Positions 3,955 to 36,366 of a DNA stretch of 64,000 nucleotides are shown here, piece by piece (position 1 is the stretch's first letter; each line of letters opens with the position of its first letter). This stretch comes from Meghimatium bilineatum. Taxonomy: Eukaryota; Mollusca; Gastropoda; Stylommatophora; Philomycidae. The stretch lies in contig CM067306.1 in NCBI GenBank assembly GCA_034231615.1, positions 67,549,579 to 67,613,578 on the forward strand, given 5' to 3'. The position numbers were made by a program, and so were the translations under genes. A model generated the notes under the pieces. It saw only the letters and a program-made list of their open reading frames with translations. It was not told the origin of the DNA and searched no databases.

Positions 3955-4067
3955 GGAGCAGGCTTTACTCTTTCCATATTACAATGTGCCTACATTCCAG
4001 AAGAGAAAGGACAGTATTCAGAGAACACTAGCTCTCATTAGACCTGAAGCCTTAGCTAACAAGAAAA
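3955..4067 (+). CDS. NME8: NME8-like exon a: linker and start of first NDK domain in window
   Basis: Acceptor CTCTGTACCCACAG, donor GTGGGT. The exon enters completing a codon (phase 2) and leaves in phase 1. It encodes a basic linker (QKRKDSIQ) and then TLALIRPEALANKK, the first beta strand and start of helix 1 of an NDK fold. Arg replaces the lysine that contacts the nucleotide phosphate in active NDPKs. Confidence 0.8.
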
Positions 4068-5014
4068 GTGGGTGCATACTTTCTTCCACTAGTTATTGTT
4101 TCACTTTTATTTGCATTGTCACATGCTAGAAATGTATATTTGCATTGTCACATGTTGTAGATGTATATAAATTATGTGTTACCAAGACAAATATATGTTT
4201 GTGCACTTTAGAATTAATGTATGTCACATACTATGGATGTGTGTTTGGTATCCGTTATGTGTGTTATGACCCTGTTATGGCTGGGGCCATTATCAGATGG
4301 AATTGGGGGTCCCAGCACTATGGAAGACCATCTGGTGGCGCCATGCTCCCATTATATACCTACTTTTTGTTACTTTATTCATTTTGTAGTGTGAAGATTA
4401 GTTGATGTTTTACGTTATTTATTTTGCAGTGTGAAGATTAGCCCAGTGTTCTGGAAAAAAGCATTGTTTACCAAGTTTTTTTTAAATGTGTTTATAGGTG
4501 CCACATTTTGATGAAGTTGCTTGATTTGTTTTTCTATGTCACATGGTGACCAAGTTGCTTGATTTGTTTGTAGGTGCCACATTGTGACCAAGTTGTTGAT
4601 TTGTTTGTAGGTGCCACATTGTGACCAAGTTGTTGATTTGTTTGTAGGTGCCACATTGTGACCAAGTTGTTGATTTGTTTGTAGGTGCCATCATGCAGAA
4701 GATCACAGATGCAGGGTTTAAAATTGATATGTTCAAGGAAGTTCAGCTCAGTAAGGAACAAGCTGCAGAGTTTTATAAGGAACATGAACAATATGCTTAC
4801 TTTGACTCGTTGGTGGAAAATATGAGCAGGTATGTTTGTAGACTGGCTTCCTTGGTAGAAGGGTTAGTAAGATAGTAATGATCCTAACTCATGCAAACTG
4901 GGACATGTCTGGAGTGCAGAATTAGTTGTGCCATTTCACATAATTCTAACAATATTTGTGAGGTGTTTCAGCGCAGCTGAAAAAAAAGCAGTGTTCTGAA
5001 CAGGATATGATTCA

Positions 5015-5053
<39 letters not shown>

Positions 5054-5849: not shown

Positions 5850-5894
<45 letters not shown>

Positions 5895-8800
5895 CACTTA
5901 TACGCAATATTATTGCAGTGCTAATGGACACCTAATTTCAAATGTGTACCCAAATTTTATTGTGCAAAACTAATGTTTCAACCCAGACATGAAGAACCTT
6001 TCAGACTTGAACAATGAAATGATGTTCATTATATTTGATTTGGACATTTATTCTTTGTGGCTGAGGCCTCTGTTTTAGTAAGGTGTATGGCTTCCTCTGG
6101 CCTCTATCAAAGTTTTAGTAAGGTGTATGGCTTCCTCTGGCATCTATCAAAGTTTTAGTAAGGTGTATGGCTTCCTCTGGCATCTATCAAAGTTTTAGTA
6201 AGGTGTATGGCTTCCTCTGGCCTCTTATAAAAGTTTTAGTAAAGTGTATGGCTTCCTATGGCATCTATCAAAGAACGACATTTCCGTGATATGGATTTGA
6301 TTAGCCATTGAATCTGTTGTTGTGGGATGGTTGCCCACTCTTCCCTCAGTGCAAGATCTGTTGTTGTGGGATGGTTGCCCACTCTTCCCTCAGTGCAAGA
6401 GACAATTGTTGAAAATTGGCTGGAGCCATGTATTGCTGTCAGAGTTGTCTATCGAGTTCATCCCATAAGTGTTCTATAGTGTGCATGTCCTATAGTGTGC
6501 ATGTCCTATAGTGTGCATGTCCTATAGTGTGCATGTCCTATAGTGTGCATGTCTGATGAAAATCAACCCTTGCATTTGAAGGACAAGATGACAAACAATT
6601 TCAATGACATAGAATTCAGCATTCAAGCGTCCTTCATTTTGCACCAGGTCACTTCTTCCCACGGGAGTACATTAGTTTCTATGTACGGTAATGTCCCAGA
6701 TTTAACATGGGAGTAAACTGGTTTCTATGTAATGTCCCAGATTTAACATGGGAGTGAACTGGTTTCTATCTCGTAAAAAGTAAAGTAACCCATAGCATTT
6801 ATTAATGCCGTAGGGGTGTGAGATGTTAGCGATCTCACATTTCACAGGCTCTGCAAATGAGGGCGGTAGCCATCTCCTCTCCCTCGCAGTCTTTACTTCC
6901 CGGATTAATCCGGTACCCATTTAAGGCTGGGTCGACCTGGGAGCCGTTGCGATCTGAAAACATTTCCGCCTCAACTGGGGAATGAACCCAGGACCACTCA
7001 TATTCCATATCCAATACTGAAGTAAAATATTTTCTACCTCATGTCCCAGATTTCTTCTTCATCGTTCATTCTCAAACTCCTGCTGGATCTCCCTTGTAGC
7101 AAGACCATTGTCCTACTAGATTTCTAGCAGGATGTAGTCCAGAGAATGGAAATGCGTTGTGTCGCTGTTTTATTTACGTCAATGGACCAACACATCTGTC
7201 TTCGGCGGGATGTCCAAGATTTAACATTGGAGAGAACATAAATAAACATATAGAAGACAATCATAAGAAGAAAATATTTGCAAACTGGGAGAACTCACCA
7301 TATACTAAGTCTTTGTTCACTGGTTGAGATATTTCTAAGAAAGAGATCGGAACACGTGTAATTATTTTTCCAACAGTGCCAGGATGATGGCACTAACATG
7401 ACAATTTGAAATTGTTGAATGTTGAAGTTCATGTTTATTAATTAATCATAAATTGTATTTCATCTTCAGGTGATTGAATGATGAAGTCCAGTTTTTTAAA
7501 TGAATCATAAATTGTATTTTACCTTCAGTGGCCCAATTTTAGCTTTAGGCCTGAGTAAGGATGATGGAATTAAAGCTTGGAAAGTAGCCTTGGGTCCTTC
7601 AAATATTGATGAGGCAATGGAAAAGGCACCTCAAAGGTGAGTCTGGGAAGCTGTTGTTTAGAATTTTGATGAGGCAATAAAAAAAGCACCTCTAAGGTGA
7701 GTCTGTGTAGCTGTGCATGAGAATGCTGTTATTCTACTAACATGTTTGAATGATATTAAAGCATAATTAGATGATGTCTTGGTGAGGGTATTGCAAATAT
7801 CAAGTCTGTGTATTGTGACATGCTTGTACAGAGTCTGTGTTGAATTCTGTAACAATTATGTTCAAATTGAAGGGCTCAAGAGGTGTAGTGCATTGACTCC
7901 ATTGTACTAGGGTTACCCCATATTTACTCCATCTTCTTAATGAAGATGCATCATGACCCCTGGTAGGTCAATTTTTAAAACATATAATATGCCCGTGTGT
8001 TGCTGGGGCCTGAAAGGGGAGCAAAGAATAGCAACACTGTTTACCTTCCACGCATGCCGTAAGAGGCGACTACGGAGGTTATGGGATGGAGTTGGCTGTC
8101 CCATCCCATATAGGGTCAGTGACCCACAGCCATGCAGAAGTCAGATGTGTCAGTCTTAAAGGCACAGATATTGCAGAAATGCTGTAAACCATGACACAAC
8201 GCATTCCATTCTCCGGACTACATCCTGCTAATCTGCAGGAGTTTGAAAACAAATGCAGAAAAAGAAAAAGAAGAAACATATAATAGACAGCTAAAACTCA
8301 AGTACAAAATCATTTATTTTTTCAGAATTGCCCCCCCCCCCCTGAACAATTAAATTGCCCCCCTGTGGCCCCATGTTGGGAAACACTAATCTAAAGTGAT
8401 ACTCATGTCCAAGGAGCTCCGGAGCAAGCATGACATACATCAACCATCTTCAAGCACATAAATGAGAACATTCCCATAATTGAATGTCCAAATATGTAAT
8501 AAATGACCATCATCATCATGTGTCATAGATGAGCTAGAACATATTGGCTACATTTGTATTGACCATAATTAAGTCTTGTGGCCATATGATCTGTGTGGTC
8601 AATAGTGGTTAACATTGACACAATCAAATTATTGGAGGCTTTCATGTGATTGGGGAGCAATAGGAATAAGTATTATCAAATACTTGATATAGTGACTGTC
8701 AATACCTGCATGCTTCTTGTATGATAACTGGCAATGCTGCATGTTTCCTGTTTGGGATTGGAGGGAGGCTGCATGTGTGATAAAAGGCATGCACTTGCTG

Positions 8801-11800
8801 CAGGGTTAGCTCAAGAATGTACAAATGGGTATAAGCATACCTGCATAATAGAAGAGCCAGGGTACATTTAGATGGTCGCAAGAGCAAGAAAGTCCTACTG
8901 CATCATGCAGTCCACCAGGGAGGAGTCCTGTCACCCACACTTTTCTTGGTTTACATCAATGACCTAGTTGTCGAACTACCACATGGAATCAAAGTGGCAA
9001 TGTATGCTGATGACCTGGTGATCTGGTGCACGGAAGAACATGCGACAGTGGCCACTAAACAAATACAAAGAGCTATTGATGCCTTAACCTTATGGGCTAA
9101 TAGATGGTGCGTCAGCGTTAACACAGATAAGTGCAGCACTATACTCGTTACCCTCTCACCAAAACAAAAATCCGGTGTTATCAAGATAGATGGAGAGCTT
9201 TTGAAAGAAGACAAACAACCCACAAACCTCAGAGTTACTTTTGATGATAATCTGACATGGAATAAGCACATAAACAAAGCAACAACAAAATCCAGGAGAA
9301 CGTTAGCTATCCTGAGAAAACTAAGTGGAACCACATGGGGAGCCAGTGGGAATATACTCTGTGAAGTGTACCAGCAAGGTATAAGACCATACCTGGAATA
9401 TGGCTCAGCTGTGTGGTGTCCTGCATCAAACACCACATTACAAAAACTAGATAAAGTAAGACAATTTGCCAGAGACCGCTGGGATTTCAGGAGATTCATA
9501 ATGAAACTACGGTCTAAAGGTATATGATATGATAATCTGCAGGGTTTTGAAAATAAAAGCCAAAGAAAAAGACTAACAATCTGGAAATGTATTAGTAACT
9601 GCACACATTTTTGTTTACTTTCTGGTAATGTTTGACTACAGAAACTTGTATGTGTATCTGCTGTGTTGTTTCCCTGCAGCTTGCGTGCTCAGTTCCCAGG
9701 CACTGGTGGCATGAACCAGCTCCATGGCTCAGAAAGTGAAGAAACTGCTAAGGAAGAGTTATCCTACTTCTTTCCCATGGAACACACAGTTGCAGTCATC
9801 AAACCAGATGCTATCTGTATTAAAGGTAACTGTGTGTGTGTGTGTGTTTGTCCTCACAAACCAGATGCTCTCTGTATTAAAGGTAATTGTACTTGTGTGT
9901 TTGTCGTCACTTGTCCTCATGTATGTTTTACATTGTTTAATACTGCTGTTATTGATAGGACCGCGGGTTTAGTACTGTTGTTATTGATTAGAAAGAGGAA
10001 GAGTTGGAAAACTGAAGAACACCTGGAGAAGAACAGTGGAGGAAAGAACAGAATCAATTGGAATCTTGTCAGCACAGATGAAGAGCACAGAATTGGCCAG
10101 AAATCATTGAAGAGTGACAGCTATGTTCCATAGACAACTGAAAGCAATTAGATAGAGATACCGCCCGTGTGTTGCCAGGGCCTGAAAGGGGAGCAAAGAA
10201 TAGCAACACTGTTTACCTTCCACGCATGTCGTAAAAGGCGACTAAGGAGGTTATGGGATGGAGTTGGCTGTCCCATCCCATATAGGGTCAGTGACCTAAA
10301 GCCATGCTGAAGTCGGATGTGTCAGGCCGAAAGGCACAAATATCGCAGCAGTGCTGTAAACCATGACACAATGCATTCCATTCTCCAGACTACATCCTGC
10401 TAATCTGCAGGAGTTTGAGAACGAACGCAGAAGAAGAAGAAGTTAGAGATACACTGAGAGCTTGACATATGTTTATTTTAGTATTCATTGTTTATTTATT
10501 CATGTTTCAGATGACATCATTGTTTATTTCATCATGTTTCAGATTACATCATTGCAGATTTCTTCATATTTCAGATGACATCATTGTTTATTTCATCATG
10601 TTTCAGATGACATCATTGTTTATTTCATCATGTTTCAGATGACATCATTGTTTATTTCATCATTTTTCAGATGACATTATTGCCAAGATCATTGAATCTG
10701 GTTTCAAGATTGCTGCACAGCAGGAAATAATGATCCCATCGTCAACTGTTGACATTATGTACCCAAATCATAGAGATCAGCCGTACTATGAGGATATGGT
10801 CAACTATCTGACCAGGCAAGTCCAGAAACTCCTATTCACTCACATATTATACACATTTAGTCATTGATCTACATTACTGTTCTTTCTTTTCTACAACAAA
10901 ATGTAGGTACACGCAAGCAGACATCTTCAACAAGACTCTAATAGATGTCAGACTATATGTACAAGAATGTATACACACTGATAGATGTCAGACTATATGT
11001 ACAAGAATGTATACACACTGATAGATGTCAGACTATATGTACAAGAATGTATACACACTGATAGATGTCAGACTATATGTACAAGAATGTATACACACTG
11101 ATAGATGTCAGACTATATGTACAAGAATGTATACACACTGATAGATGTCAGACTATATGTACAAGAATGTATACACACTGATAGATGTCAGACTATATGT
11201 ACAAGAATGTATACACACTGATAGATGTCAGACTATATGTACAAGAATGTATACACTGTGATATGCATCCTGCTGGAAATCTACCATGGCCATTGTACTG
11301 TTACTAGAGAGATCCAGTGGGAGTTTGAGAATGAATGCTGAAGAAGAAGAAATCATTTGGTGGCCCAGGTAGAAAGTTATAATATTTACTATGAATGTAA
11401 GGCTATGATAAAAGTAGAATATAAGAAAAAGTGGAAGTAGATGCACCCAACTGCAGAACCAAATGACCTCTACCATTAAATGTCACGCAAGTAACACACC
11501 ATTGTCTGTCTACGAACTGGCCCCAAAATAGACTGAGAAGTCACATGATCAGAAAGCTTAAAATTGGTGAGACAGACTTATGAAACTGTGAACTGAGCCC
11601 AGAGGCAGCAGATGACATTTTTCATACCTGTCAACTCTACCAAGCAAAGAGAGGTAGAAAATATGGCCTACTGAAACAGCACTACTTCCAGACATGAGGG
11701 CTTCCTTGGATGACCTGAAGCTAATCACACAATTATATAATTGAAGCTGTTAGTATTGTAATCTAATATCTGACTGCAGTATTGTAATCTAATATCTGAC

Positions 11801-26800: not shown

Positions 26801-29800
26801 GCTTCCAAATACCGTTCCCCCCCCCCCCCCCCCCCGTCCCATCCTCTGACAATATATTTTGATTGGTGCCGCCTGATGTGGCTGCCTCTCTGCATCATAG
26901 CTTGGCACGGCCCTGTGTACAAATATTCTGTCATAAGTTTGGTAAAAATATCATAGGATTGGGATAAATTTAGCGGATAATCCTGTACGTACGTCCATGG
27001 TACACAATCTACATCTAGACTCTATATTGATATGACACAATAAATTATAGTCAACTGTTTTGTTTATGCCTGTATGATATGGGGGCCAGTACACATGAAT
27101 CACTTTAATGTCTGTATGATATGGGGGCCAGTACACATGAATCACTTTAATGTCTGTATGATATGGGGGCTAGTACACATGAATCACTTTAATGTCTGTA
27201 TGATATGGGGGCTAGTACACATGAATCACTTTAATGTCTTATGATATGGGGGCCAGTACACATGAATCACTTTAATGTCTGTATGATATGGGGGCCAGTA
27301 CACATGAATCACTTTAATGTCTGTATATGGAATGTTTCCATTTTAAATTGACTTTGATGTTCATTCATTTTATTTCAAAGTAGAAAACCAAAGGTAAGTT
27401 GGTGATCTTTTTTGAAATTTTTGTTCTGTTTTATTTACAATTTTAAATTTATATTTGGACTTTTATAACTTGAGATGATATTCTAATATGCTCATTTTGA
27501 TTAGTTTGAATAGTTCTGCTATGCTATATTCTAGTTTTTTATGCCTGCTTGAGCATTTTCAATTTGTAACTCTTGTAATGAGGTACGCTTCTTTCAACTG
27601 CAAACGTGAGTCAAGTTTGGTTATACCAGAGCTTATGATTATTAAAAAATAATGGAGGTTGTAGTTCAGGTAATCCTAACAAAACACAACCTCTGAGATG
27701 TTTTTCTGTATTCTCACTAACATAGTTATTGTTTTTCTCACATTTGTTCTCAAACTCCCACTGGATGTTTCTTGTAATAACAAAATAAATTCAAGTATGA
27801 AACATGAGCATAAATGAACAAATTTTTCAGTTTGACAGGAATGGAACTATCTGGTAGGTATATTTTAGCAGCACTGAATTACCTTGCAACTCAAATAAAC
27901 AGGTTATCTGTACCTTACCAACCACATCCCCAAAGAAAATGTGGTCTTGTCAAGACATTCAACCTGCGCACTTAAGGGATAAGTATAGATAGTATTATGT
28001 ACATGAATGTTATATTGTCACATCATATTAATAGTTTTATGTACATTCTTCTTCTGTGTTTGAACTCCTGCAAATTAGGAGGATGTAGTCCAGAGAACGT
28101 CATGCTTTATAGCATTGCTGCAATATCTGCGCCTTTTGGCCTGACACATCTGACAGCATGGATTGGGGTCACTTAGACCCTATATGAGATGGGACAGCCA
28201 ACCCCACCCTATAACCTACTTAGTCAGCTCTTACAACATACATGGATGGTAAAAGTGATGTTATTCTTTGCTCCCCTCTCAGGCCCTTCAACACACGGGT
28301 GATTATGTACATGAATGTTATATTGTGTACAATGTTTCATCATATAAACTTGGTTTCCTACATGTACATGAGCACCACTCACAGCATGTCAAGCTGTAGC
28401 ATAGCAGCAATTGGTGAGAGCACCACTCGTAGCATGTCAAGCTGTAGCATAGCAGCAATTGGTGAGAGCACCACTCGTAGCATGTCAAACTGTAGCATAG
28501 CAGCAATTGGTGAGAGCACCACTCGTAGCATGTCAAACTGTAGCATAGCAACAATTGCTGAGAGCACCACTCATAGCATGTCAAACTGTAGCATAGCAAC
28601 AATTGCTGAGAGCACCACTCATAGCATGTCAAACTGTAGCATAGCAACAATTGCTGAGAGCACCACTCATAGCATGTCAATCTGTAGCATAGCAACAATT
28701 GCTGAGAGCACCACTCATAGCATGTCAAACTGTAGTATAGCAACAATTGCTGAGAGCACCACTCATAGCATGTCAAGCTGTAATTCAAGTAGATTTTTCC
28801 TGGAGAAGTTAACTTTATGAGCAAGAATTCATAAACCTGATTCAAATCCATGACCTCTTGAACACACAGCAAATGGATGAACCACTGTATCCCATACACT
28901 TCTGTTGCAGTTGTCATTGTATTGTTGATTGATATTTATGTGATGGTTATGTTGGTATTGTTTATGATATGGTTATGTTATGGCTATTTTGTTATGAATG
29001 ATGACTATGGTTCAATCTTCTCGTATCTGTAGAGCCACCTAATACAGATCAGCACGTTCTTGCAGAAGATACACAGGATATAATGGATAATGAGAACAAT
29101 AATGCAGAGGTAGAATCTGAACAGCGATCTGACACACAGACTGATACAGTGCAGCATGATGATAGTGAAGAGCCTACCAGAGGTAAAATAAATCCTAAAA
29201 GAACAAACAAAGTAATTTAATTGACATTGAAAGACTGGCTTTACACAATACCTCATATATTACACAAAGTCATCGCCAATGTGTTGCCGAGACCCAATAG
29301 GGGAGCAAAGAATAGCAACACTGTTTACCTTCCATGCATGTCATAAGAAGCGACTAACAGCTGCTGCGGTCATATATTGTCAGGTCTGTCATCAAAGCGA
29401 AGTCCACTTTTTTCTCCAGATCAGAGCAGCTGCCCCATAACTTTTTACCTCAAATCTTTATCCTCTGACCAGGTCTGCTGTCTCTGTTCTTTGTATGTAG
29501 ACAGTCCTGAAGTATGTGTTCAGGATTCTGGGATCCAGATGCACATAGATAATCATCTGTGTATTGTAATTTCAATTGGAAAATGTAACCCAACAGTCTA
29601 CACTAAGAAGAAATAGTGTGGTCTGTTGGTTTCTTTAGTGGTGTATTGCATCAAACCTATGTATTATGACCTTGTGAGTGTCATGTACATTATGATTCCA
29701 TTGTGATTGTTCTGTGCACTGTGACTCTCCATCGTGATTTTGTTATGCATGATTGTGTTACAATTGTTATTTTTCTGTCCATGATTGCGTTACCATTGCC

Positions 29801-32800
29801 CATTTCTTTTCACACAAAAAACAGTGACACAGGAATCCCGAGCTAGTTCTGAGACAATTCAAGCAGATAATCAAGAGGCAAGCTTCCAGGAAGGGGAAGA
29901 CAACCGCAGTAACAATCAACAACAGCTAGGTAAGAGTTGTCTGTACATTTGTTATATAAAATTATCTGGTCGAACTCAGTCTACGTTCTACAACATACCA
30001 GACTATTGTAAGAGATGTGATCTGTCCATGTCTGTAAGGGGATGCAAAGGTTCTCTCATTGCTCTCGTGCTGACCCAGGATTAGCAGATAACCAAGATGC
30101 TAAAAGTACTTTCTCATGGTGCACCCTGGAAACAGAAATACAGCTGCTCTTGCTGTATTCCTAACTAACATTTTTAGGCTCATGTCCGTGGATGCTGTAG
30201 ATGGAATGAGAATTTCCTGCAGAGAGACAACCTCTATGCCATTACATCCAACATATGCATTGTATCTGTACATCACGGGATGACTACCACCTACTTAACA
30301 GACAAGAACAGGACATCATATTTCGACTCAGAACTGGACACAATAGACTAAACAGCCATATGTATACAAAATTTAAAATTGGCACAACAGCAAAGTGTAT
30401 ATGTGGGCAAGTCAACCAGACTTCAGAACATATCCTTCAAGAATGTGCAAACTATGACACAGTAATGTGCACATACTGGCCTTCTGATACACCAATGAAT
30501 GTTAAACTTTATGGTACAAAACAAGAAATGGAAACACTGTCCAATTTATGCAAGAAACAACACTAAAGATATAGACATTATTAGCGAACAATTTATACTA
30601 GAAACAATACTGCACTCTGACTTGGCCTGCTTAAAAAGCAGAAACATTGGAGGGATGACCAATGTTAATGTCCATAACATGCAAAGATCTTACGAGTACA
30701 CACTAAATCTGGAAAAGGTAACACACGCTAGAGTGCAGCGTTGTGTATGTGAGTCAATGCTCGAAAACACACAAAATCCTACATGTCTCATCACAATTGA
30801 CCCCATTCAAAGTAAGAATCATGACTCTGGTATTTGATATGCCATCTTGAACATGCATTCCTGCGTATGGAAGAAAGCTTTGAATACAGCTCCCCATTGC
30901 ACACAGGACAAGCATTGTTCAAATGTCGGGGAGCGCATTGTTCAAATGTCTGACCGAAGTAGTGTTGAAACTTGGAATCTGGACACTGGGGACAACATAG
31001 AAGGGGAGTGCAAGTCTCTAACAACACTGCAAACCTAGCCCAACTCGACTGTCGGCCATTACCCAACATGGCTCATACAGAGAGAATTGGGTTCAGTACT
31101 CAAGGGACAACTGCGAAATTCCTCATCTGAGATTTTTATTTTACCTACCTCTTTGGGTAATATATGCAATGCCAAAGAGTCAAAATACACAGACTGCACA
31201 TTAGAAATGGATTGGAAGACCATCTCAAGTGGATGAGGTTAGTGCATGAGAAATGAACATGTCAAATCTCAGGCACCAAATATGTTTGGCAAAGCAGCAC
31301 CTTATCTAGGAAGACGTATCAACTCTGAGTCTAATTTGACAGTCGCTGTTGCCCAACACAGCTCATATGGAAGAAATTAGGTCTGGGACACAAATGGTAA
31401 TGGAATGGTCTTTCTACATGAGGAACAGCTCACTGGCTGCGAAGCACCACAGCAGAGGATAGACAAACAATGGGTGACCCAAGCAAACTATCAGCTCGCC
31501 TTGTCTGATGTACCCTCCCCCACCCCCTGAGTAGAAGGCTCCTCTAATAGGCATTGCACCAAACCGAAAGGTGAAAACTCCTGGGCATGAAAGAAAGCTC
31601 AGAAACCTCCCCATTGCACATAGGAAGTAAGAGCTAATCGCTCGTAATACCTGTGGTTCTCAAACAACAACATGTCTGTAAGAGCTGTGATCTGTCCATG
31701 TCTGTAAGAGATGTGATCTGTCAATGTCTGTAAGAGCTGTGATCTGTCCATGTCTGTAAGAGATGTGATCTGTCAATGTTTATAAGGAGGCACATTGTGT
31801 AAAGATATCAATCCTGTACGTCAAAGTGATCTAGAAACCATACTGAAGTTCGATGTATCAAGCCAAAAGGCACAGATATCACAGCAATGCTTTTTCTTCT
31901 GCATTCAACATCTGCGTTCATGTTATATTGTCAGTCTTGTCGTCAGGGTGAAGTCTACTGTCTTCTCCAGGTCAGAGTGGCTGCCCTATAGCTTTTGCCT
32001 CAAATCTGTATCATCTGCTGTCTCTGCTATTTGTATGTTGGGCAATCCTGAAGAATGTATGGACATTTATCTGTGTATGAGATCCGCAATCGCTAAAGGT
32101 GACCCAACAGTCTGCAGTGGCCTGTTCTAAGGTGAAATAGTGTGGTCTGTTGATATCTTCGAAGGTGATGTATTGCATCATGTTTGTCTTCCACTTCTAT
32201 TACAGCAATGCTGTAAACCAGGATATAATATATACCATTATTCTCTGAACTAAATCCTGATAACCAGTGGGAGTTGGAGAGTCTTCTTCTTCATCGTTCT
32301 TCAGTCAGATATCAGGTTACAGCGGAAATAGCTTCAATGAATTTTTTGATTCGCTTCAGGTCATCCATGGAACCCCTCAAGTCTGGAAGTAGTGCCATCT
32401 CAGTAGGCCATATTTTCTCCCCTTCTTCTTGGTAGAGTTGACAGGCATGAAGAATGTGTTCTGCAGTCTCTGGGCTCAGTCCACAGGTCTGTAGTTTGAG
32501 AGTGAACACAAAGTATACTTGCCAACACACCCCTGTGTTGTTGGTGAGACCATACAATAATAACACTGTAACCTGCCATGCATACAATAGGTGATTAAGG
32601 AGGGTTGGGTGTGGTGTTTAGCTGCCCTACCCAGCAGGTCAAAGTAACCCAAAATTGTCATAGTGAAGTTGAATATAGATGTATCAGGTCAATAGATGTA
32701 GATATCACATCTATGCTGTAAACACTTCTTACAGCTGATAGGAATTGAACCAAGTCCATTCTAGCAGCACTGAATCGCTCTGCAACACATGTAATTCCTA

Positions 32801-35800
32801 CTTGAATTTGCTGTAAACACTGCACATTCCATTCTCATAAACACATCCTGCCCCATTTATCAGGAGTTTGAGAAAGAATACAAAAGAAAAATAATAATTT
32901 GTAAATGGTATTACAAAGGTTTCAAAGCCGTAGAAGATTGGCTTCACTGTACTCGGTTTCCCATATGTACTCTGTCCCTCTTAACGAAGCGGCACACCGC
33001 CTGCCGAGAGTACCACTCATAGCACGTAACTCTGTAGCTTCAAGTGATAATCCACCTTATGAACAAGATGACACGAGCCGGATTCGAACCCGTGACCTCT
33101 TGAACACAAGGCGAACAGCTTAACCACTACGCCAGGGAGATCCCCAATTCGTATTAATTGTATTAAATCATCATCAAGTGCTGTCTCCACAACACAGGTT
33201 GGCTACAACGGACATCTTATATCCCCTGTCTCTTGCCTTGATGGTGCACTCTGCTAGACTGTAACCTGCCCATCTTATGAAGTTACTCTCCCACTTGTGC
33301 CTCCGCCAACCTCTTGAAAATGGTATTATAATATAATATATTACAAGATTTAGTTTTGTATAACTCAAAAATGGTATTATAATATAATATATTACAAGAT
33401 TTAGTTTTGTATAACTCAAAAATGGTATTATAATATAATATATTACAAGATTTAGTTTTGTATAACTCAAAAATGGTATTATAATATAATATATTACAAG
33501 ATTTAGTTTTGTATAACTCAAAAATGGTATCATAATATAATATATTACAAGATTTAGTTTTGTATAACTCAAAAATGGTATCATAATATAATATATTACA
33601 AGATTTAGTTTTGTATAACTCAAAAATGGTATCATAATATAATATATTACAATATTTAGTTTTGTATAACTCAAAAATGGTATCATAATATAATATATTA
33701 CAAGATTTAGTTTTGTATAACTCAAAAATGGTATTATAATATAATATATTACAAGATTTAGTTTTGTATAACTCAAAAATGGTATTATAATATAATATAT
33801 TACAAGATTTAGTTTTGTATAACTCAAAAATGGTATTATAATATAATATATTACAAGATTTAGTTTTGTATAACTCAAAAATGGTATTATAATATAATAT
33901 ATTACAAGATTTAGTTTTGTATAACTCAAAAATGGTATTATAATATAATATATTACAAGATTTAGTTTTGTATAACTCAAAAATGGTATTATAATATAAT
34001 ATATTACAAGATTTAGTTTTGTATAACTCAAAAATGGTATTATAATATAATATATTACAAGATTTAGTTTTGTATAACTCAAAAATGGTATTATAATATA
34101 ATATATTACAAGATTTAGTTTTGTATAACTCAAAAATGGTATTATAATATAATATATTACAAGATTTAGTTTTGTATAACTCAAAAATGGTATTATAATA
34201 TAATATATTACAAGATTTAGTTTTGTATAACTCAAAAATGGTATTATAATATAATATATTACAAGATTTAGTTTTGTATAACTCAAAAATGGTATTATAA
34301 TATAATATATTACAAGATTTAGTTTTGTATAACTCAAAAATGGTATTATAATATAATATATTACAAGATTTAGTTTTGTATAACTCAAAAATGGTATAAT
34401 ATAATATATTACAAGATTTAGTTTTGTATAACTCAAAAATGGTATTATAATATAATATATTACAAGATTTAGTTTTGTATAACTCAAAAATGGTATTATA
34501 ATATAATATATTACAAGATTTAGTTTTGTATAACTCAAAAATGGTATTATAATATAATATATTACAAGATTTAGTTTTGTATAACTCAAAAATGGTATTA
34601 TAATATAATATATTACAAGATTTAGTTTTGTATAACTCAAAAATGGTATTATAATATAATATATTACAAGATTTAGTTTTGTATAACTCAAAAATGGTAT
34701 TATAATATAATATATTACAAGATTTAGTTTTGTATAACTCAAAAATGGTATTATAATATAATATATTACAAGATTTAGTTTTGTATAACTCAGAAATGGT
34801 ATTATAATATAATATATTACAAGATTTAGTTTTGTATAACTCAAAAATGGTATTATAATATAATATATTACAAGATTTAGTTTTGTATAACTCAAAAATG
34901 GTATTATAATATAATATATTACAAGATTTAGTTTTGTATAACTCAAAAATTGTTTCATGATTTTATCTGCAGATATTCTATCAATACTGCTGAAACTTGG
35001 GATTCATCAAATTCACATTTCTATTCTTGCTAGTTTATTTCTTTGTTGAATTACCATAATTTTTTTTCTGAATTGATTTTATTTTCATCGTATAGATAAA
35101 TGACACATATTTTCATCTTATAGATAAATGACAGTTTCATTGTATAGATAAATGACACAGTTTCATCTTATAGATAAATGACACATATTTTGAATAAGTA
35201 CAAATTTAGTTTCCTAATTTACGGGAATAAAATTGTAAATAAACTAACTGTAATCTAATGTGAAACAAAATATAACAGCACAGGAGGAACAACTGAGAGT
35301 AATTAGTGGGATAAATTTATTCTGGGTGTCAGTTTTGTTGTATTATTATATTTCTTTCATGTTACAAGTATGTATGCAAATTTAAGTATGCATGGTTTGG
35401 TAATTGCATGACCAAATGATACAGTGGGAGTCTCACTCATTGCATACATTCATAACAAGGTTCTTTATTTTACAATTTATTTGTTTTTAAAATCCTCTTA
35501 TCAGGTTTTATTTATTTTTTATGATGAAATTTGGCTTTGACAGATATTTCAACTGTCCAAATGTATTTGTGTCATGTTAATCCACTGTATAATTAAATGT
35601 AGTTTGTATGTGTTCATTAGAAATTGTGTACCATGGATCAGTAAAAAATAATTATGTTGTAAAACTTGATTTAAAATGTTTTTAAATGAAGGCACAAATA
35701 ATTCTAAAATATATTTGATAATTTTTTAGCAATCTTATTGTATTGTACTACGGTGAATAGATTTGATGGCAGTAATAAAAGTGATACTTTTGTCTAATGT

Positions 35801-36366
35801 CTGTTGTAGCAGAGTATGCCGATGTAATAAAAGTGATACTTTTGTCTAATGTCTGTTGCATCAGAGTATGCCGATGTAATAAAAGTGATACTTTTGTCTA
35901 ATGTCTGTTGTAGCATCAGAGTATGCCGATGTAATAAAAGTGATACTTTTGTCTAATGTCTGTTGTAGCATCAGAGTATGCCGATGTAATAAAAGTGATA
36001 CTTTTGTCTAATGTCTGTTGTAGCAGAGTATGCCGATGTAATAAAAGTGATACTTTTGTCTAATGTCTGTTGTAGCATCAGAGTATGCCGATGTAATAAA
36101 AGTGATACTTTTGTCTAATGTCTGTTGTAGCATCAGAGTATGCCGATGTAATAAAAGTGATACTTTTGTCTAATGTCTGTTGTAGCAGAGTATGCCGATG
36201 TAATAAAAGTGATACATTTGTCTAATGTCTGTTGTAGCATCAGAGTATGCCGATGTAATAAAAGTGATACTTTTGTCTAATGTCTGTTGTAGCAGAGTAT
36301 GCCGATGACGAAGGAGAAGCTCAACCAGAGGCTGAGGGAACTCCTGCAACTGAAGTTGCTGAATAA
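3955..36366 (+). CDS. NME8: NME8/TXNDC3-like multi-NDK protein, C-terminal part (13 exons, 5' end outside window)
   Basis: Exons read as 3955-4067, 4685-4829, 7529-7636, 9680-9825, 10671-10815, 12228-12335, 14343-14473, 18280-18312, 20837-20899, 26732-26740, 29033-29182, 29825-29929 and 36296-36366. Joined, they give about 442 codons in one frame ending in TAA. Two nucleoside-diphosphate-kinase domains are visible. The first begins TLALIRPEA and carries its active-site-like motif as NQLHGSES. The second begins HTVAVIKPDA and carries NAIHGSSS. Both keep the SLRA arginine and the N-x-x-H-G-S histidine; the first has Arg in place of the usual Lys of the IKPD motif. An acidic, Gln/Asn-rich tail of about 140 residues follows. 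Tandem NDK domains plus an acidic tail match NME8/TXNDC3 and the sea-urchin outer-arm dynein intermediate chain 1 type, which starts with a thioredoxin domain (expected left of position 1). The role would be in sperm and ciliary outer dynein arms. The family assignment is from memory; NME7 is a weaker alternative. Confidence 0.8.
4498..4684 (+). repeat. 37-bp tandem repeat containing duplicated 3' splice sites
   Basis: Units of 37 bp, each ending TTTGTTTGTAG and followed by GTGCCA. AG dinucleotides fall at 4573, 4610, 4647 and 4684 (the true acceptor), with a more diverged one at 4497. The first six bases of the exon are part of every unit. A decoy used instead of the true site reads S-A-T-L-stop. 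Confidence 0.9.
4685..4829 (+). CDS. NME8: NME8-like exon b: first NDK domain, helix 1 to strand 3
   Basis: 145 nt, phase 1 to phase 2, donor GTATGT. It encodes AIMQKITDAGFKID and then QAAEFYKEHE and FDSLVENMS, the standard NDK succession of glycine-containing helix, Y-x-E-H helix and F-x-x-L-V strand. The matched exon of the next domain (10671-10815) has exactly the same length. Confidence 0.85.
4870..5128. other. Intron sequence with (AT)n tract
   Basis: No gene is seen. An (AT)n microsatellite lies at about 5021-5050, and a second at about 5854-5887 in the same intron. Confidence 0.8.
5129..5420 (+). mobile_element. Diverged SINE-A copy
   Basis: Recognisable by the landmarks of the SINE-A family in order: GTGTTG near the 5' end, GGTGACTAAGGAGG, GGTGGAGTTGACTGTCCCAT, CATTCCATTCTCTGG, CAGGAGTTTGAAAA and an AAGAAGAAG-like tail. 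Many substitutions mark it as an old copy. Confidence 0.75.
5421..5820 (+). repeat. Short direct repeats and a family-B retroposon tail
   Basis: About 5430-5525 holds three imperfect copies of a unit around GGAGTGGGAGATAAGTAAAA. About 5740-5815 holds the 3' tail of the family-B retroposon (CTACAAGAGAGATC, then GGGAGTTTGA, then an AAGAAGAAG tail). No gene is seen. Confidence 0.6.
6072..6273 (-). repeat. 40-bp minisatellite made from a Tc1 transposase C-terminus
   Basis: Five units of 40 bp. On the - strand each unit reads I-D-A-R-G-S-H-T-P-Y-stop, which matches the conserved C-terminal end of Tc1-like transposases. The array is continuous with the transposase remnant next to it, so the minisatellite is an amplification of the transposon's last codons. 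Confidence 0.75.
6274..6660 (-). pseudogene. Tc1/mariner-like transposase remnant
   Basis: The - strand contains the pattern L-x-L-A-L-R-E-E-W-A-T-I-P-Q-Q and then S-M/I-S-R-K-C, the C-terminal region of Tc1-family transposases, preceded by W-D-E-L-D. A 38-bp piece around 6310-6395 is duplicated, and a 16-bp unit (TGTGCATGTCCTATAG) is repeated five times at 6478-6553. No catalytic DDE core can be read, so this is a dead fragment. Confidence 0.65.
6770..7012 (-). mobile_element. tRNA-headed SINE (family T), copy 1
   Basis: The - strand starts with a tRNA-like head (a B-box-like GGTCCTGGGTTCATTCCCC at about 6985-7003), then TGAGGCGGAAATG, GGTCGACCCAGCC, GGATTAATCCGGG and GTGAGATCGCTAACATCTC. 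The same body recurs near 46965-47110 and 63000-63250, so it is a dispersed family. Confidence 0.7.
7050..7225 (-). mobile_element. Family-B retroposon, copy 1
   Basis: Contains TTCTTCTTCATCGTTCATTC (reverse of the A-rich 3' tail), TCTAGCAGGATGTAGTCCAG and GGAAATGCGTTGTG. The 3' tail resembles that of SINE-A, but the body differs. Further copies lie near 11258, 38828, 44370, 51535, 53330 and 54345. Confidence 0.75.
7410..7528 (+). repeat. 59-bp duplication of a 3' splice site
   Basis: Two copies of AATCATAAATTGTATTT followed by a pyrimidine stretch and CTTCAG. AG ends at 7469 (decoy) and 7528 (true acceptor of exon c). Branch region, pyrimidine tract and AG are all duplicated. Confidence 0.8.
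7529..7636 (+). CDS. NME8: NME8-like exon c: first NDK domain, strand with GPxLAL
   Basis: 108 nt, phase 2 to phase 2, donor GTGAGT. It encodes SGPILALGLSKDDGIKAWK and LGPSNIDEAMEKAP, the G-P-x-x-A-x-x-L strand and the G-P-x-x-x-x-E-A segment typical of NDK domains. Exon f (12228-12335) of the next domain is also exactly 108 nt with the same phases. Confidence 0.85.
7605..7712 (+). repeat. 60-bp duplication of exon end and donor site
   Basis: The last ~30 coding bases of exon c (from GATGAGGCAAT) plus GTGAGTCTG are repeated 60 bp downstream, giving a second consensus donor at 7697 in addition to the true donor at 7637. Confidence 0.85.
7991..8273 (+). mobile_element. SINE-A retroposon, copy with target duplication
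   Basis: Full-length copy of about 283 bp ending in an AAGAAAAAGAAG tail. It is flanked by a direct repeat AAACATATAATA at about 7978-7989 and 8274-8285, the mark of retroposition. A poly-C tract follows at about 8328-8342. Confidence 0.85.
8346..8690. other. Intron sequence without recognisable features
   Basis: AT-rich, no clear ORF, repeat or RNA. It includes a short LINE-tail-like stretch with CATCATCATGTG. Confidence 0.5.
8870..9530 (+). pseudogene. Jockey-like LINE reverse transcriptase fragment
   Basis: In frame: HQGGVLSPTLFLVYINDL, then VAMYADDLVIW with the YADD catalytic motif, then ALTLWANRWCVSVNTDKC, NLTWNKHI, and SAVWCPASN. This is the palm and thumb region of a Jockey/CR1-group non-LTR reverse transcriptase. 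It lacks the endonuclease and the N-terminal RT, and breaks off at about 9525 against a retroposon tail (AATCTGCAGGGTTTTGAAAA). It sits in the intron before exon d in the same orientation as the host gene. Confidence 0.8.
9680..9825 (+). CDS. NME8: NME8-like exon d: end of first NDK domain and start of second
   Basis: 146 nt, phase 2 to phase 1, acceptor TTTCCCTGCAG, donor GTAACT. It encodes SLRAQF, the histidine motif NQLHGSES and ELSYFFP, then with no linker HTVAVIKPDAICIK, the first strand of the next NDK domain. The active-site-type His is present. Exon d therefore fuses two domains directly. Confidence 0.85.
9789..9892 (+). repeat. 57-bp duplication of exon end and donor site
   Basis: AACCAGATGCT-x-TCTGTATTAAAG plus GTAA is present at the end of exon d and again 57 bp downstream, giving donors at 9826 and 9883. 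The 57-nt interval has no stop in frame. Confidence 0.85.
10162..10444 (+). mobile_element. SINE-A retroposon, copy with target duplication
   Basis: Near-intact copy (CGCCCGTGTGTTGCCAGGGC at the 5' end, GAAGAAGAAG tail) flanked by AGAGATAC at 10154-10161 and 10445-10452. Same orientation as the host gene. Confidence 0.9.
10479..10670 (+). repeat. 32-bp tandem repeat containing duplicated 3' splice sites
   Basis: Units of 32 bp ending CATCATGTTTCAG and followed by ATGACATCATTG. AG ends lie at 10510, 10542, 10574, 10606, 10638 and the true acceptor 10670. The first 12 bases of exon e (ATGACATTATTG) are represented in the units with one difference. Confidence 0.9.
10671..10815 (+). CDS. NME8: NME8-like exon e: second NDK domain, helix 1 to strand 3, GC donor
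   Basis: 145 nt, phase 1 to phase 2. It encodes DDIIAKIIESGFKI, then YPNHRDQPYYEDMVNYL. The exon ends ACCAG followed by GCAAGT, so the intron would be of the GC-AG class. The alternative of a missing GT donor is unlikely because the next exon (12228) joins in the correct phase and completes the domain. Confidence 0.85.
10935..11257. repeat. 40-bp minisatellite, 8 copies
   Basis: Eight nearly identical 40-bp units containing GATGTCAGACTATATGTAC, starting about 120 bp after exon e. Confidence 0.95.
11258..11350 (+). mobile_element. Family-B retroposon tail
   Basis: GCATCCTGCTGGAAATCTA, AGATCCAGTGGGAGTTTGAG and a GAAGAAGAA tail: the 3' half of family B. Confidence 0.7.
11500..11756 (+). pseudogene. 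LINE C-terminal fragment
   Basis: Reads L-S-P-E-A-A-D-D-I-F-H-T-C-Q-L-Y-Q, matching a better conserved copy on the - strand at 32312-32530 (S-P-E-T-A-E-H-I-L-H-A-C-Q-L-Y). This is the H-x(3)-C end of a Jockey-type LINE ORF2. Frames are broken. Confidence 0.55.
11757..11884. repeat. 26-bp minisatellite, 5 copies
   Basis: Units built on AGTATTGTAATCTAATATCT with a following GACTGC. Confidence 0.9.
11920..12227 (+). repeat. 29-bp repeat array merging into the acceptor of exon f
   Basis: Alternating units TCAGTGTCCCAGTCTAAGAT and TCAGTGTCCCAGTTTAACAT. Several units read AATCATTCAG|TGTCCCAGT, while the true junction at 12227/12228 reads AATCATTCAG|TGGTCCAGT. The acceptor and the first exon bases thus look like one more repeat unit. 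Confidence 0.85.
12228..12335 (+). CDS. NME8: NME8-like exon f: second NDK domain, GPxLFMVL strand
   Basis: 108 nt, phase 2 to phase 2, donor GTAAGT. It encodes SGPVLFMVLSREGALTGWR and MGDADPDVAKN. It is too short for ordinary ORF listing and was found by looking for the missing piece between exons e and g; phase and length match its partner exon c. Confidence 0.85.
12540..12935 (+). pseudogene. RTE-like LINE C-terminal fragment
   Basis: Continuous frame [14 protein letters not shown], then R-Q-S-R-F-L-G-H-V-L-R-R, T-T-G-K-I-K-G-R-R-D-R-G-R-Q-R, ending R-N-M-I-A-Y-A. This is the C-terminal region of an RTE-clade ORF. Related remnants lie near 48240-48560 and 50050-50340. Confidence 0.8.
12950..13290. 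repeat. ~31-36-bp minisatellite, about 10 copies
   Basis: Degenerate units built on AAGTAGTTTCACACATACAT and a T-rich spacer. Confidence 0.85.
13701..13883. repeat. Long near-perfect inverted repeat (hairpin)
   Basis: Arms of 79 nt (13701-13779 and 13805-13883) are reverse complements with only two mismatches by eye, separated by a 25-nt loop. The outer end begins CCTCAGTAAC. It may be a short palindromic MITE or a foldback element. Confidence 0.85.
14193..14342 (+). repeat. ~70-bp duplication running into the acceptor of exon g
   Basis: Two full copies of TTCATTTATCAACATGGGG...GACAAGTTGTAAGATAGAC and a third truncated copy ending in the true acceptor CTTGTTCCACAG. Each full copy contains TTGATTGTAG, a weak acceptor-like site. 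Confidence 0.75.
14343..14473 (+). CDS. NME8: NME8-like exon g: end of second NDK domain
   Basis: 131 nt, phase 2 to phase 1, donor GTATTA. It encodes SLRALYGKNLLRNAIHGSSS with the active-site-type His in N-A-I-H-G-S, then FKREMLAVFGDLKFNEDGTVK. The G-S-S-S replaces the usual G-S-D-S. This is the best candidate for a catalytically competent domain in the window. Confidence 0.85.
14717..15287. repeat. 52-bp minisatellite, about 11 copies
   Basis: Highly uniform 52-bp units containing ATTGTGACTGGTCTAGCAAA; variants GATACAGC/GAAACAAC alternate. Confidence 0.95.
15288..15597. other. Intron sequence without recognisable gene
   Basis: Contains AGAGAACTCTTCT as in LINE 3' tails of this window, otherwise nothing identifiable. 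Confidence 0.5.
15598..15925 (-). repeat. SINE-A fragment with tandemly amplified internal segment
   Basis: 15598-15715 is a reverse SINE-A piece (CTCAAACTCCTGC, then GGAGAATGGATTGCAT). From about 15700 the segment CACATCTGACTTAAGTATTA repeats about seven times to 15925. CACATCTGACTT is a normal SINE-A segment, so the array grew out of the retroposon. Confidence 0.75.
16540..16800 (+). mobile_element. Diverged SINE-A fragment followed by 24-bp repeat
   Basis: GTGTCGCCAGGTCCAAAAG through AAGCAATGCTGAAGTCAGAC is a decayed SINE-A. It is followed by about five units containing CAACAGTACAGGTATAAAAC (16700-16800). Confidence 0.6.
16874..17059 (-). pseudogene. LINE 3' end fragment
   Basis: The - strand reads R-Q-R-Y-K-W-E-S-N and T-G-Y-S-L-A-E-C-T, then a tail to C-G-D-G-T-stop. 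This is the extreme C-terminus of an RTE-like ORF; a second copy borders the 51-bp array at 33170-33315. Confidence 0.65.
17165..18232. repeat. 34-bp minisatellite, about 31 copies
   Basis: Uniform units around GCAATGATGTCACTGCCTGA; the array ends about 50 bp before the acceptor of exon h. Confidence 0.95.
18280..18312 (+). CDS. NME8: NME8-like exon h: start of acidic tail
   Basis: 33 nt, phase 1 to 1, acceptor TTATTTTTCAG, donor GTGAGT. It encodes G-A-Q-P-N-L-E-E-T-S-Q. Strong splice signals on both sides and correct phase support it despite the size. Confidence 0.7.
18340..19112 (-). repeat. 56-58-bp minisatellite derived from the family-B retroposon, about 13 copies
   Basis: Every unit contains CTACTAGATTTCCAGCAGAA and TGTAGTCCAGAGATCTC, which is the core of family B (compare 7080-7150). 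The array starts with the element's own CTCAAACTCCTGC edge at about 18347, so it arose by tandem amplification within one insertion. Confidence 0.85.
19180..19700 (-). other. Unclassified open stretch of about 107 codons
   Basis: The - strand holds a 107-residue ORF (19415-19738) with GKLWTGPAKDTIKPIC and EEWIPIPMVFEEAVTT, and open reading continues with stops further 3' to about 19180. I do not recognise it. It may be a decayed transposon or gene fragment; base composition is less AT-rich than the surroundings. Confidence 0.3.
19705..20110. repeat. TG-rich degenerate repeat
   Basis: Irregular units of about 20-25 bp around GTTTGTAGCATATTGTGTGT. Confidence 0.9.
20115..20350 (-). mobile_element. 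Diverged SINE-A copy
   Basis: In reverse: CTCCTGTAGATTGCAGGATG, GGAGAATGGGATG, TGGTTTACAGC, ATCCTTTTATGGGATGAGA and TTCTCTGCTTCCC. Confidence 0.65.
20410..20597. repeat. 46-bp minisatellite, 4 copies
   Basis: Units containing CTATCTCAGGGGCTGCTGTA and GCGCAAGGCGAACACGGG. Confidence 0.9.
20837..20899 (+). CDS. NME8: NME8-like exon i: acidic tail
   Basis: 63 nt, phase 1 to 1, acceptor TGCATTTAG, donor GTCAGA (weak). It encodes a D/N/S/T-rich segment with STDDTGNDVPESN. Choosing the upstream AG avoids an in-frame TGA that the AG at 20843-20844 would create. Moderate confidence because the donor is not a good consensus. Confidence 0.55.
20905..21325. repeat. ~54-60-bp minisatellite, about 7 copies
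   Basis: Units containing CTTGAATATGTAACTTGATA and CAAAGCTTCTCTAGTT; begins just after exon i. Confidence 0.9.
21365..22262 (+). repeat. 34-bp minisatellite derived from SINE-A, about 24 copies
   Basis: 21365-21440 is the 5' part of a SINE-A copy. From about 21443 the unit GTAGGTTTGGGGATGGTGTT-GGCTCTCCCCTCCT repeats about 24 times. The corresponding SINE-A stretch is GGAGGTTATGGGATGGAGTT-GGCTGTCCCATCCC, so the array is an amplified internal piece of the retroposon. Confidence 0.85.
22290..22870 (+). pseudogene. RTE-like LINE C-terminal fragment
   Basis: Open frame with L-N-S-F-H-L-Q-C-L-R-N-L-M-G, then D-A-L-L-I-R-S-Q-L-R-W-T-D-H-I-I-H-M and F-Y-G-Y-L. This is the well-known H-x-R-C-L-R and Q-L-R-W-x-G-H region of RTE-like ORFs. 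The reading continues in other frames to about 22860. Confidence 0.8.
23265..24850. repeat. Compound 23-/36-bp minisatellite, about 1.6 kb
   Basis: Units combine ACATTCTGTACATCATGACT with ACACTATAACACACAAC or ACACTACAACACT spacers. Unit types are grouped: the left part is rich in CACACAAC spacers and the right part in CTACAACA. Confidence 0.9.
25190..25600 (-). pseudogene. RTE-like LINE 3' fragment
   Basis: The - strand reads K-L-V-T-T-E-M-T-C-L-H-R-I-L-R-E and R-I-R-N-Q-N-I-R-K-L-T-N-T, very close to the intact copy at 60792-61922. The tail near 25196-25235 corresponds to that copy's 3' end (TGGGGTAGAAGAGTTCTCTG). AACAACAAC-type simple repeats flank it. Confidence 0.8.
25610..25972. repeat. 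29-bp minisatellite, about 11 copies
   Basis: Units AACAACCATTTACAGCAATA-ATCCTCTAT, more degenerate copies from 25030-25140. Confidence 0.95.
26031..26313 (-). mobile_element. SINE-A retroposon, copy with 14-bp target duplication
   Basis: Full-length reverse copy, CTTCTTCTTCTTCTTCTGCG at its 3' side and CAACACACGGGC at its 5' side, flanked by perfect GATATTTTCATTCT repeats (26017-26030 and 26314-26327). The perfect duplication indicates recent insertion. Confidence 0.95.
26330..26655. repeat. ~25-30-bp minisatellite, about 12 copies
   Basis: Units around TTCATTACAAATTCTTACAC and TTGATTACTTCATTAC; a poly-C run follows at 26818-26836. Confidence 0.9.
26732..26740 (+). CDS. NME8: NME8-like candidate 9-nt microexon
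   Basis: AACCAAGAG between an excellent acceptor (TTGACTTCTGTTTCAG) and donor (GTATGT). Phase 1 to 1 gives E-P-R. Phase and spacing fit the tail, but a 9-nt exon is hard to prove without RNA. If absent, the frame is unaffected. Confidence 0.45.
27075..27318. repeat. 42-bp minisatellite, 6 copies
   Basis: Units around GTCTGTATGATATGGGGGCC and AGTACACATGAATCACTTTA. Confidence 0.95.
27320..28040. other. Intron sequence without recognisable gene
   Basis: AT-rich. It contains a splice-like AAAACCAAAG/GTAAGT at 27384-27399, which does not keep the tail phase, and a short family-B edge at about 27745. Confidence 0.5.
28046..28306 (-). mobile_element. SINE-A copy
   Basis: Reverse copy with CTTCTTCTGTGTTTGAACTC at one side and CTTCAACACACGGGTGATTA at the other, about 10% diverged from the better copies. 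Confidence 0.8.
28365..28785. repeat. 48-bp minisatellite, about 9 copies
   Basis: Units GAGCACCACTCATAGCATGT-CAAACTGTAGCATAGCAACA-ATTGCT. Since 48 is a multiple of 3, open frames exist on both strands (192 and 199 codons), not taken as genes. Downstream, 28790-28890 resembles the tRNA-like head seen at 33020-33140. Confidence 0.9.
29033..29182 (+). CDS. NME8: NME8-like exon k: acidic tail
   Basis: 150 nt, phase 1 to 1, acceptor CGTATCTGTAG, donor GTAAAA. It encodes a strongly acidic, Gln/Asn-rich segment including DTQDIMDNENNNAEVESEQ. No stop occurs in this frame over 50 codons while the flanks are stop-rich. Confidence 0.7.
29270..29640 (+). mobile_element. SINE-A 5' fragment and element D copy 1
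   Basis: 29275-29360 is the 5' part of SINE-A (AATGTGTTGCCGAGACC...AGAAGCGACTAA). 29375-29640 (from GTCAGGTCTGTCATCAAAGC to TGTGGTCTGTTGG) recurs at 31925-32175, so it is another dispersed sequence of unknown type. Confidence 0.7.
29825..29929 (+). CDS. NME8: NME8-like exon l: acidic tail
   Basis: 105 nt, phase 1 to 1, acceptor CACAAAAAACAG, donor GTAAGA. It encodes VTQESRASSETIQADNQ and then an E/D/N/Q-rich run. Open frame over the whole exon. Confidence 0.7.
30180..30840 (+). pseudogene. Jockey-type LINE C-terminal fragment
   Basis: Frame with [14 protein letters not shown], then C-I-C-G-x(5)-S-E-H-I-L-Q-E-C, the R-T-G-H and C-x-C-x-H-x-C signature at the end of Jockey-group ORF2 proteins. 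It lacks the RT domain. The following 30500-30840 is open in another frame but unassigned. Confidence 0.75.
31640..31780. repeat. ~27-bp repeat, 4-5 copies
   Basis: GTCTGTAAGAGATGTGATCT units. Confidence 0.85.
31880..32180 (+). mobile_element. Element D copy 2
   Basis: Diverged repeat of 29375-29640: TCAGAGTGGCTGCCCTATAG, GACCCAACAGTCTGCA and TGTGGTCTGTTG in the same order. Function unknown. Confidence 0.7.
32312..32530 (-). pseudogene. LINE C-terminal fragment
   Basis: The - strand reads L-S-P-E-T-A-E-H-I-L-H-A-C-Q-L-Y-Q and W-P-T-E-M-A-L-L-P-D-L, then F-I-E-A-I-S-A-V. It is the better preserved relative of the fragment at 11500-11756. Confidence 0.7.
32531..32880 (+). mobile_element. Diverged SINE-A copy interrupted by a tRNA-like piece
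   Basis: 32531-32715 follows SINE-A from CCCTGTGTTGTTGGTGAGAC to GTAGATATCACATCTATGCT; after an insertion (about 32730-32800) the 3' part resumes with GCACATTCCATTCTC and CAGGAGTTTGAGAAAG. Confidence 0.6.
33020..33150 (-). mobile_element. tRNA-headed SINE fragment
   Basis: The - strand contains CTGGCGTAGTGGTTAAGC (A-box-like) and CACGGGTTCGAATCCGGC (perfect B-box consensus GGTTCGAATCC), 35-40 nt apart as in a tRNA. No folded acceptor stem is evident, so it is read as a SINE head or tRNA pseudogene and not as a functional tRNA. Confidence 0.65.
33170..33315 (-). pseudogene. LINE 3' end fragment
   Basis: The - strand reads R-R-H-K-W-E-S-N-F-I-R-W-A-G-Y-S-L-A-E-C-T and ends C-G-D-S-T-stop, like 16874-17059. 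The 51-bp array begins exactly where this homology stops. Confidence 0.7.
33316..34950. repeat. 51-bp AT-rich minisatellite, about 32 copies, very homogeneous
   Basis: Units around ATAATATATTACAAGATTTA and GTTTTGTATAACTC. Copies differ at only a few sites (ATTATA/ATCATA in copies 5-8, one 3-bp deletion at about 34393). The 51-bp unit gives a 594-codon ORF on the - strand, a repeat artefact. Confidence 0.97.
34951..35764. other. Intron sequence without recognisable gene
   Basis: AT-rich (about 30% GC by eye) with a few copies of TATAGATAAATGACA at 35095-35190. No ORF of note. Confidence 0.6.
35765..36295 (+). repeat. 52-/55-bp tandem repeat containing nine duplicated copies of the terminal-exon acceptor
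   Basis: Each unit runs GTAATAAAAGTGATACTTTT-GTCTAATGTCTGTTGTAGC and then (ATC)AG followed by AGTATGCCGATG. The last 12 bases are the first bases of exon m. Nine decoys precede the real junction at 36295/36296. Confidence 0.92.
36296..36366 (+). CDS. NME8: NME8-like terminal exon m
   Basis: Acceptor TGTCTGTTGTAGCAG, phase 1. It encodes EYADDEGEAQPEAEGTPATE and V-A-E, then TAA at 36364-36366. No AATAAA lies in the next 250 bp, and a full-consensus donor (GTGTGG/GTAAGT) occurs at 36402, so the transcript may continue into a 3' UTR exon. Confidence 0.65.

Follow-up and report, generated by a model that had tools for sequence, protein, structure and literature searches.

The stretch analysed here, a window of 64,000 nucleotides from the gastropod Meghimatium bilineatum (assembly GCA_034231615.1, contig CM067306.1, positions 67549579-67613578; genome of 1.61 Gb in 32 contigs), holds a gene which, judged from its sequence, is NME8/TXNDC3-like and in which six splice junctions are copied in tandem repeats on their intron side. 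NME8/TXNDC3 has an axonemal (outer dynein arm) role, and genes of this type serve cilia and sperm tails. The exons of the window were located by open frame and phase, with additional homology support for exons a-g.

3955..4067, + strand: exon a, start of NDPK domain 2 (frame, phase); no junction repeat
4685..4829, + strand: exon b (frame, phase, Pfam)
7529..7636, + strand: exon c (frame, phase, Pfam)
9680..9825, + strand: exon d (frame, phase, Pfam)
10671..10815, + strand: exon e, with a GC donor (frame, phase, Pfam)
12228..12335, + strand: exon f (frame, phase, Pfam)
14343..14473, + strand: exon g, end of NDPK domain 3 (frame, phase, Pfam)
29033..29182, + strand: exon h, acidic tail, phase 1-1 (frame and phase only); no junction repeat
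29825..29929, + strand: exon i, acidic tail, phase 1-1 (frame and phase only); no junction repeat
36293..36366, + strand: exon m, last coding exon, with TAA at 36364-36366 (frame and phase only)

The product of exons a-g is 298 aa long and contains two NDK stretches (Pfam, E 3e-69), corresponding to NDPK domains 2 and 3; these exons join the tail in phase to give a single open NDPK2-NDPK3-tail frame. The first NDPK domain was read from three exons, X1-X3, within the 10 kb that precede the window (L079), of which X2 matches NDPK domain 2/3 with an E value of 2.3e-6 among the open reading frames of that locus only; the three NDPK domains of NME8/TXNDC3 are thus present. Ahead of them, on the same strand and ~25.8 kb 5' of the window, lies a thioredoxin exon with WCGPC, VIDVYQEWCGPC (locus L120; PF00085, E 0.011), which probably belongs to the same transcript. 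For tail exons h, i and m, frame and phase are the sole basis of placement, with no homology match, and as no exons were established in the g-h and i-m intervals the list of junctions may be incomplete. In total 19 junctions were placed in the window, 25 with the six of X1-X3 and 27 with the two of the thioredoxin exon. The donor ending exon e at 10815 reads CAG/GCAAGT, a slash here and below marking the exon boundary.

A junction was counted as repeated when a 21-base segment across it (15 intron and 6 exon bases) recurred with at least 17 of 21 bases matching no more than 200 bp away on the intron side. By this test, six of the 19 window junctions are copied, the acceptors of b, e, f and m and the donors of c and d, which bears out for these sites the claim of an earlier, sequence-only reading that repeats at several exons of the gene carry the adjacent splice site. 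Most of the repeats were also called by Tandem Repeats Finder (TRF).

4489..4690, + strand: acceptor b array, 37-bp minisatellite of ~5.5 copies (TRF)
7415..7528, + strand: partial case at acceptor c, 59-bp two-copy duplication (TRF)
7602..7714, + strand: donor c, 60-bp two-copy duplication (TRF; 18/21 at +60)
9800..9910, + strand: donor d, two-copy duplication with an offset of 57 bp (17/21 at +57; ends by eye; absent from the TRF list)
10485..10682, + strand: acceptor e array, 32-bp minisatellite of ~6 copies (TRF; 20/21 at -32 and -64)
11906..12236, + strand: acceptor f array, 29/58-bp minisatellite of ~11 copies (TRF for 11906-12215, final piece by eye)
35772..36307, + strand: acceptor m array, 55/52-bp minisatellite of ~10 copies (TRF)
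14195..14329, + strand: 60-bp array stopping 13 bp before acceptor g and not containing the junction (TRF, 21-base test)

In all six cases the true splice site is the end copy on the exon side; four (b, e, f and m) have ~5-11 copies, and the donors of c and d are two-copy duplications. The units at b contain TTTGTAG/GTGCCA, that is, the acceptor and the first 6 exon bases, with perfect copies of the junction (21/21) at -37, -74 and -111 and the true site last (4684/4685). The donor c repeat covers approximately the last 35 exon bases, the donor itself (7636/7637) and ~25 intron bases, and the true donor of d (9825/9826) lies within its duplication. The unit at e contains TTTCAG/ATGACATYATTG, the acceptor with ~12 exon bases, and again the true site is last (10670/10671). 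The units at f contain TCAG/TGTCCC, the diverged end copy being the acceptor itself, ATTCAG/TGGTCC (12227/12228), and copies matching at 17-19 of 21 bases are found at six offsets, the best (19/21) being that of the 29-bp unit. At acceptor m (36292/36293), copies match at 21/21 at -107 and at 17/21 at -55 and -162; most units read TTGTAG/CA(TCA)GAGTATGCCGAT/GTAATA, the acceptor followed by 14-17 exon-like bases and then GTAATA, and one unit is without TAG. Viewed by eye, such a unit (acceptor, 14-17 base piece, possible donor) could in principle work as a micro-exon, and the true acceptor of m is a TAGCAG (NAGNAG) pair.

Acceptor c, which the sequence-only reading had placed alongside the others, is a weaker seventh case: the intron end and its AG are duplicated but the exon bases are not copied (14/21 at -59), and it qualifies once the test segment is mostly intronic (18+3 and 25+5). 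The 21-base test found no junction repeat at the 12 other junctions of the window or at any of the 6 junctions of X1-X3, and by eye neither of the 2 junctions of the thioredoxin exon is straddled by repeats. The array ahead of exon X2 stops 24 bp short of the acceptor, and by the same test it does not contain the junction.

This anatomy bears a close resemblance to the amphioxus "mirages", known, in the parts of the articles available to us, from Adh3, the globins BflGb6 and BflGb9 and troponin C, with PGBD5 likened to them (PMC3087553, PMC3902484). Like these, the repeats described here are minisatellite-like and span acceptor or donor boundaries with exon bases included: the repeated unit takes in from a few to ~36 exon bases, both acceptors (b, e, f and m) and donors (c and d) are affected, and the authentic boundary is intact with the coding frame open. 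Amphioxus units measure 10-72 bp in Adh3 and ~150-160 bp in the globins (PMC3087553); length polymorphism and somatic instability have been reported, and the data suggest that regular splicing is undisturbed (PMC3087553, PMC3902484). The present repeats differ in their mollusc host and in numbering six clear cases within a single gene, and they are known here from one assembly. The features of mirages that sequence can address are matched, which extends a known phenomenon to another phylum. Junction-spanning repeats are also found in human CBS, as the 844ins68 and a 31-bp variable number tandem repeat, c.1444_1467+7(16_21), which by its name spans the exon end and the start of the intron (PMC2630376, from the portion available), although there it is a matter of one duplication and one array. 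A further parallel is the Rogers model, in which introns are gained when AG/GT segments are tandemly duplicated, proposed for mirages in the accessible text of PMC3087553: splice signals copied in tandem within a gene are what the model requires as raw material, but no new intron was found here and the repeats sit in existing introns. An intronic 27-bp minisatellite is present in an abalone gene, where the available part of its description does not state that it spans a junction (PMC6905558), and no junction-spanning repeat in a mollusc was named in the titles and abstract openings of the open-licence literature searched.

The setting of these junctions is extremely rich in repeats. Tandem repeats make up ~40% of the NME8-like gene; by a 21-base measure, the share lying in local repeats is 36.6% for the 10 kb that precede the window, 42.5% for its first 37.6 kb and 0.8% for its remainder, and at the control loci described below such repeats hold ~9% of intronic points. 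The 43 merged TRF arrays of the window are all of one class, with periods of 16-60 bp, and in period the junction arrays (29-60 bp) are not clearly different from the gene's remaining 34 (median 34, P 0.14). Some of these other arrays have units drawn from dispersed, transposon-like elements, so that seeding of an array needs no splice site. The clearest example is the following.

18362..19110, + strand: 58-bp intronic minisatellite whose unit is part of a dispersed element (7 matches beyond the array itself)

Five of the 7 matches, those listed, are at 7086, 38850, 44391, 51565 and 54370, the last four in the array-free part of the window. The unit of a 34-bp array (21443-22262) likewise has four matches of the dispersed-element kind, at 84% identity over 31 bases.

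In view of this density, the number of junction repeats must be set against a suitable null. A simple coverage null was rejected: ~38% of random intronic points fall in some array, a rate at which 6 of 19 would be unremarkable, but no array can continue into an exon. Because of this, random intronic points of the gene lying in the end copy of an array (4.4-4.7%) were used as the fair local null. Against it, 6 of 25 junctions were observed where 1.13 were expected (P 7e-4), or 6 of 27 with the thioredoxin exon junctions added (P 1.1e-3), and under six definitions of the test segment between 4 and 7 of the 25 junctions are repeated (P 9e-5 to 0.025). These P values are optimistic, since the gene was picked for its repeats.

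The controls were 121 exons of the same genome obtained from Pfam matches, namely 73 of dynein heavy chain (AAA_6, DHC_N2), 40 of myosin head and 8 of other NDPK. Dynein heavy chains are a class largely serving cilia. Splice sites were set with a simple hand-made matrix near the match ends, and 6 of the 242 junctions were dropped as weak, leaving 236. A junction-containing repeat was found at 6 of these (2.5%, confidence interval 0.9-5.5%) as against a rate of 1.9% at random intronic points (P 0.29), a ratio of 1.3 with a rough range of 0.5-2.9; with a looser cut-off of 16 of 21 there were 7 such junctions as against 2.3% of random points, and five other test segments gave P values of 0.16-0.52. 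Four of these six control cases, all donors, resemble true mirages with the GT kept: L021 (21/21 at +73 and +146), L100 (21/21 at +35 and +156), L016 (21/21 at +59) and L072 (18/21); in two of the six cases (L019 and L052) the copies are without AG or GT. Junction repeats therefore occur in other genes of this genome and are not clearly commoner there than elsewhere in introns, so there is no sign of duplication aimed at exon edges. The sequence-only reading had seen in the many cases within one gene a repeated process of local duplication anchored at exon edges, a view it made dependent on their frequency exceeding chance. Repeated local duplication there clearly is, as the 43 arrays attest; the anchoring is not supported by the control sample, in which the rate is not clearly above that of random intronic points.

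The explanation that we favour, and consider probable, is the birth and growth of short tandem duplications indifferent to position in an unusually repeat-dense gene, those that span a junction being mirages. Short duplications with units of 29-60 bp would arise anywhere, and some would happen to span an exon-intron boundary. Such a duplication would be tolerated, and would survive, because the exon-side copy retains the true site and still joins it to the whole exon, with the decoys perhaps passed over through exon definition. Copy number could then rise by slippage or unequal exchange within the intron. The high count in this gene would reflect its very high repeat density, chance and the selection of the case.

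Several points weigh against this explanation. With 6 of 25, the gene stands above even its own local null, and it differs from the control genes (Fisher 2.7e-4), so that after the controls it still shows a local excess and there is room for some local preference for junctions within it. The range of the control ratio permits up to ~2.9-fold enrichment at junctions, in a sample of 121 exons with sites assigned by matrix rather than from RNA. Case m depends on a tail exon without homology support, and the tolerance of the repeats by exon definition is itself presumptive.

Of the alternatives, duplication aimed at exon edges, for example where breaks or R-loops at the junctions of a germline-transcribed gene seed repeats, fares best and is nevertheless unlikely. 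It would account for the local excess, and for arrays that end 13 and 24 bp from the acceptors of g and X2 respectively. It is difficult to reconcile with other genes, in which 73 of the 121 exons are of dynein heavy chain and the junction rate does not exceed that of random points, and with a repeat density within 250 bp of exons which is alike for dynein heavy chain (8.0%) and myosin (7.6%); the 8 other NDPK exons give 12.0%. A testis-expression effect was also considered as a candidate and was set aside, as these coverages give no clear contrast.

It is a good deal less probable that the repeats were selected to tune splicing, the rows of decoys setting isoform choice or slowing the reaction. 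By a simple score many of the 32 decoys equal the true sites (donor c 12.0 and 12.0; acceptors at e 9.2-11.8 as against 11.8 for the true one), and in C. elegans a minisatellite is over-represented near regions of alternative splicing, according to the part of that study available (PMC4039745). However, 22 of the 32, comprising all those at b, c, e and f together with donor c, are predicted to bring a premature stop within ~30 codons, with the decoy donor of c at 7696 predicted to read directly into TGA. All 8 decoys at m are predicted to give the acidic tail a different end, and the frame would be kept throughout by just the 2 at donor d, of which the stronger, at 9882, would add 19 codons. 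As most of the decoys would truncate the protein, its production presumably requires that they be largely ignored, and selection of them as isoform switches is unlikely; the consequence for isoform choice proposed in the sequence-only reading accordingly finds little favour here, and in the amphioxus mirages too the accessible data suggest no interference with regular splicing (PMC3087553). Misassembly as the source or inflator of the arrays is the least credible of the alternatives, for although the copy numbers are those of a single assembly, individual copies are set apart by scattered substitutions and by 3-bp indels (as in the m units of 52 and 55 bp), the same class of repeat is present in unrelated genes and the contig is chromosome-sized (68 Mb).

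What is new is the mollusc host, the presence of six clear cases within a single gene and, for a sample of other genes, a rate of junction repeats (6/236) measured together with its null. The six cases also provide a test set for site choice by the spliceosome, with between one and ~ten near-identical decoys next to a single true site in each.

The repeats of the region form a domain with an abrupt end. TRF arrays (score of at least 50) occupy 17-62% of every 4-kb bin as far as 38 kb and are absent thereafter, the final array ending at 37537, ~1.2 kb beyond the stop codon, and the dispersed element that is tandemised within the gene is present as single copies in the 26 kb beyond. The domain spans what was read of the gene from the thioredoxin exon on, with 15 kb between L120 and L079 unread. 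It is conceivable, albeit doubtful, that in this lineage the birth of minisatellites is linked with transcription units and that junction mirages are a by-product of transcription-coupled duplication; were this so, some genes would be hit hardest, perhaps those with the strongest germ-line transcription, and confinement of arrays to gene bodies, if it held up, would open a question about minisatellite birth. Across 25 bins of dynein gene loci, though, repeat coverage ranges from 0.6% to 46%, and as both the 40% in the gene and the 0.8% beyond it fall inside this range, one boundary is no proof of such confinement. A plain subtelomeric gradient does not fit: the window ends ~0.42 Mb from the contig end, yet it is towards that end that the arrays disappear.

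Two very large arrays stand out within this domain, one at 1233-3774 (24 bp x ~106 copies, open in several frames) and one at 33317-34950 (51 bp x 32 copies, nearly identical). Open frames resembling retroelement remnants (reverse transcriptase or other) were seen by eye at 8835-9527, 12462-12929, 58983-59450 and 60792-61952. Elsewhere in the genome, the 50 exon matches listed for the molluscan hemocyanin beta-sandwich domain are all on two contigs (C15 and C22), a pattern that an ancient gene or genome duplication could leave.
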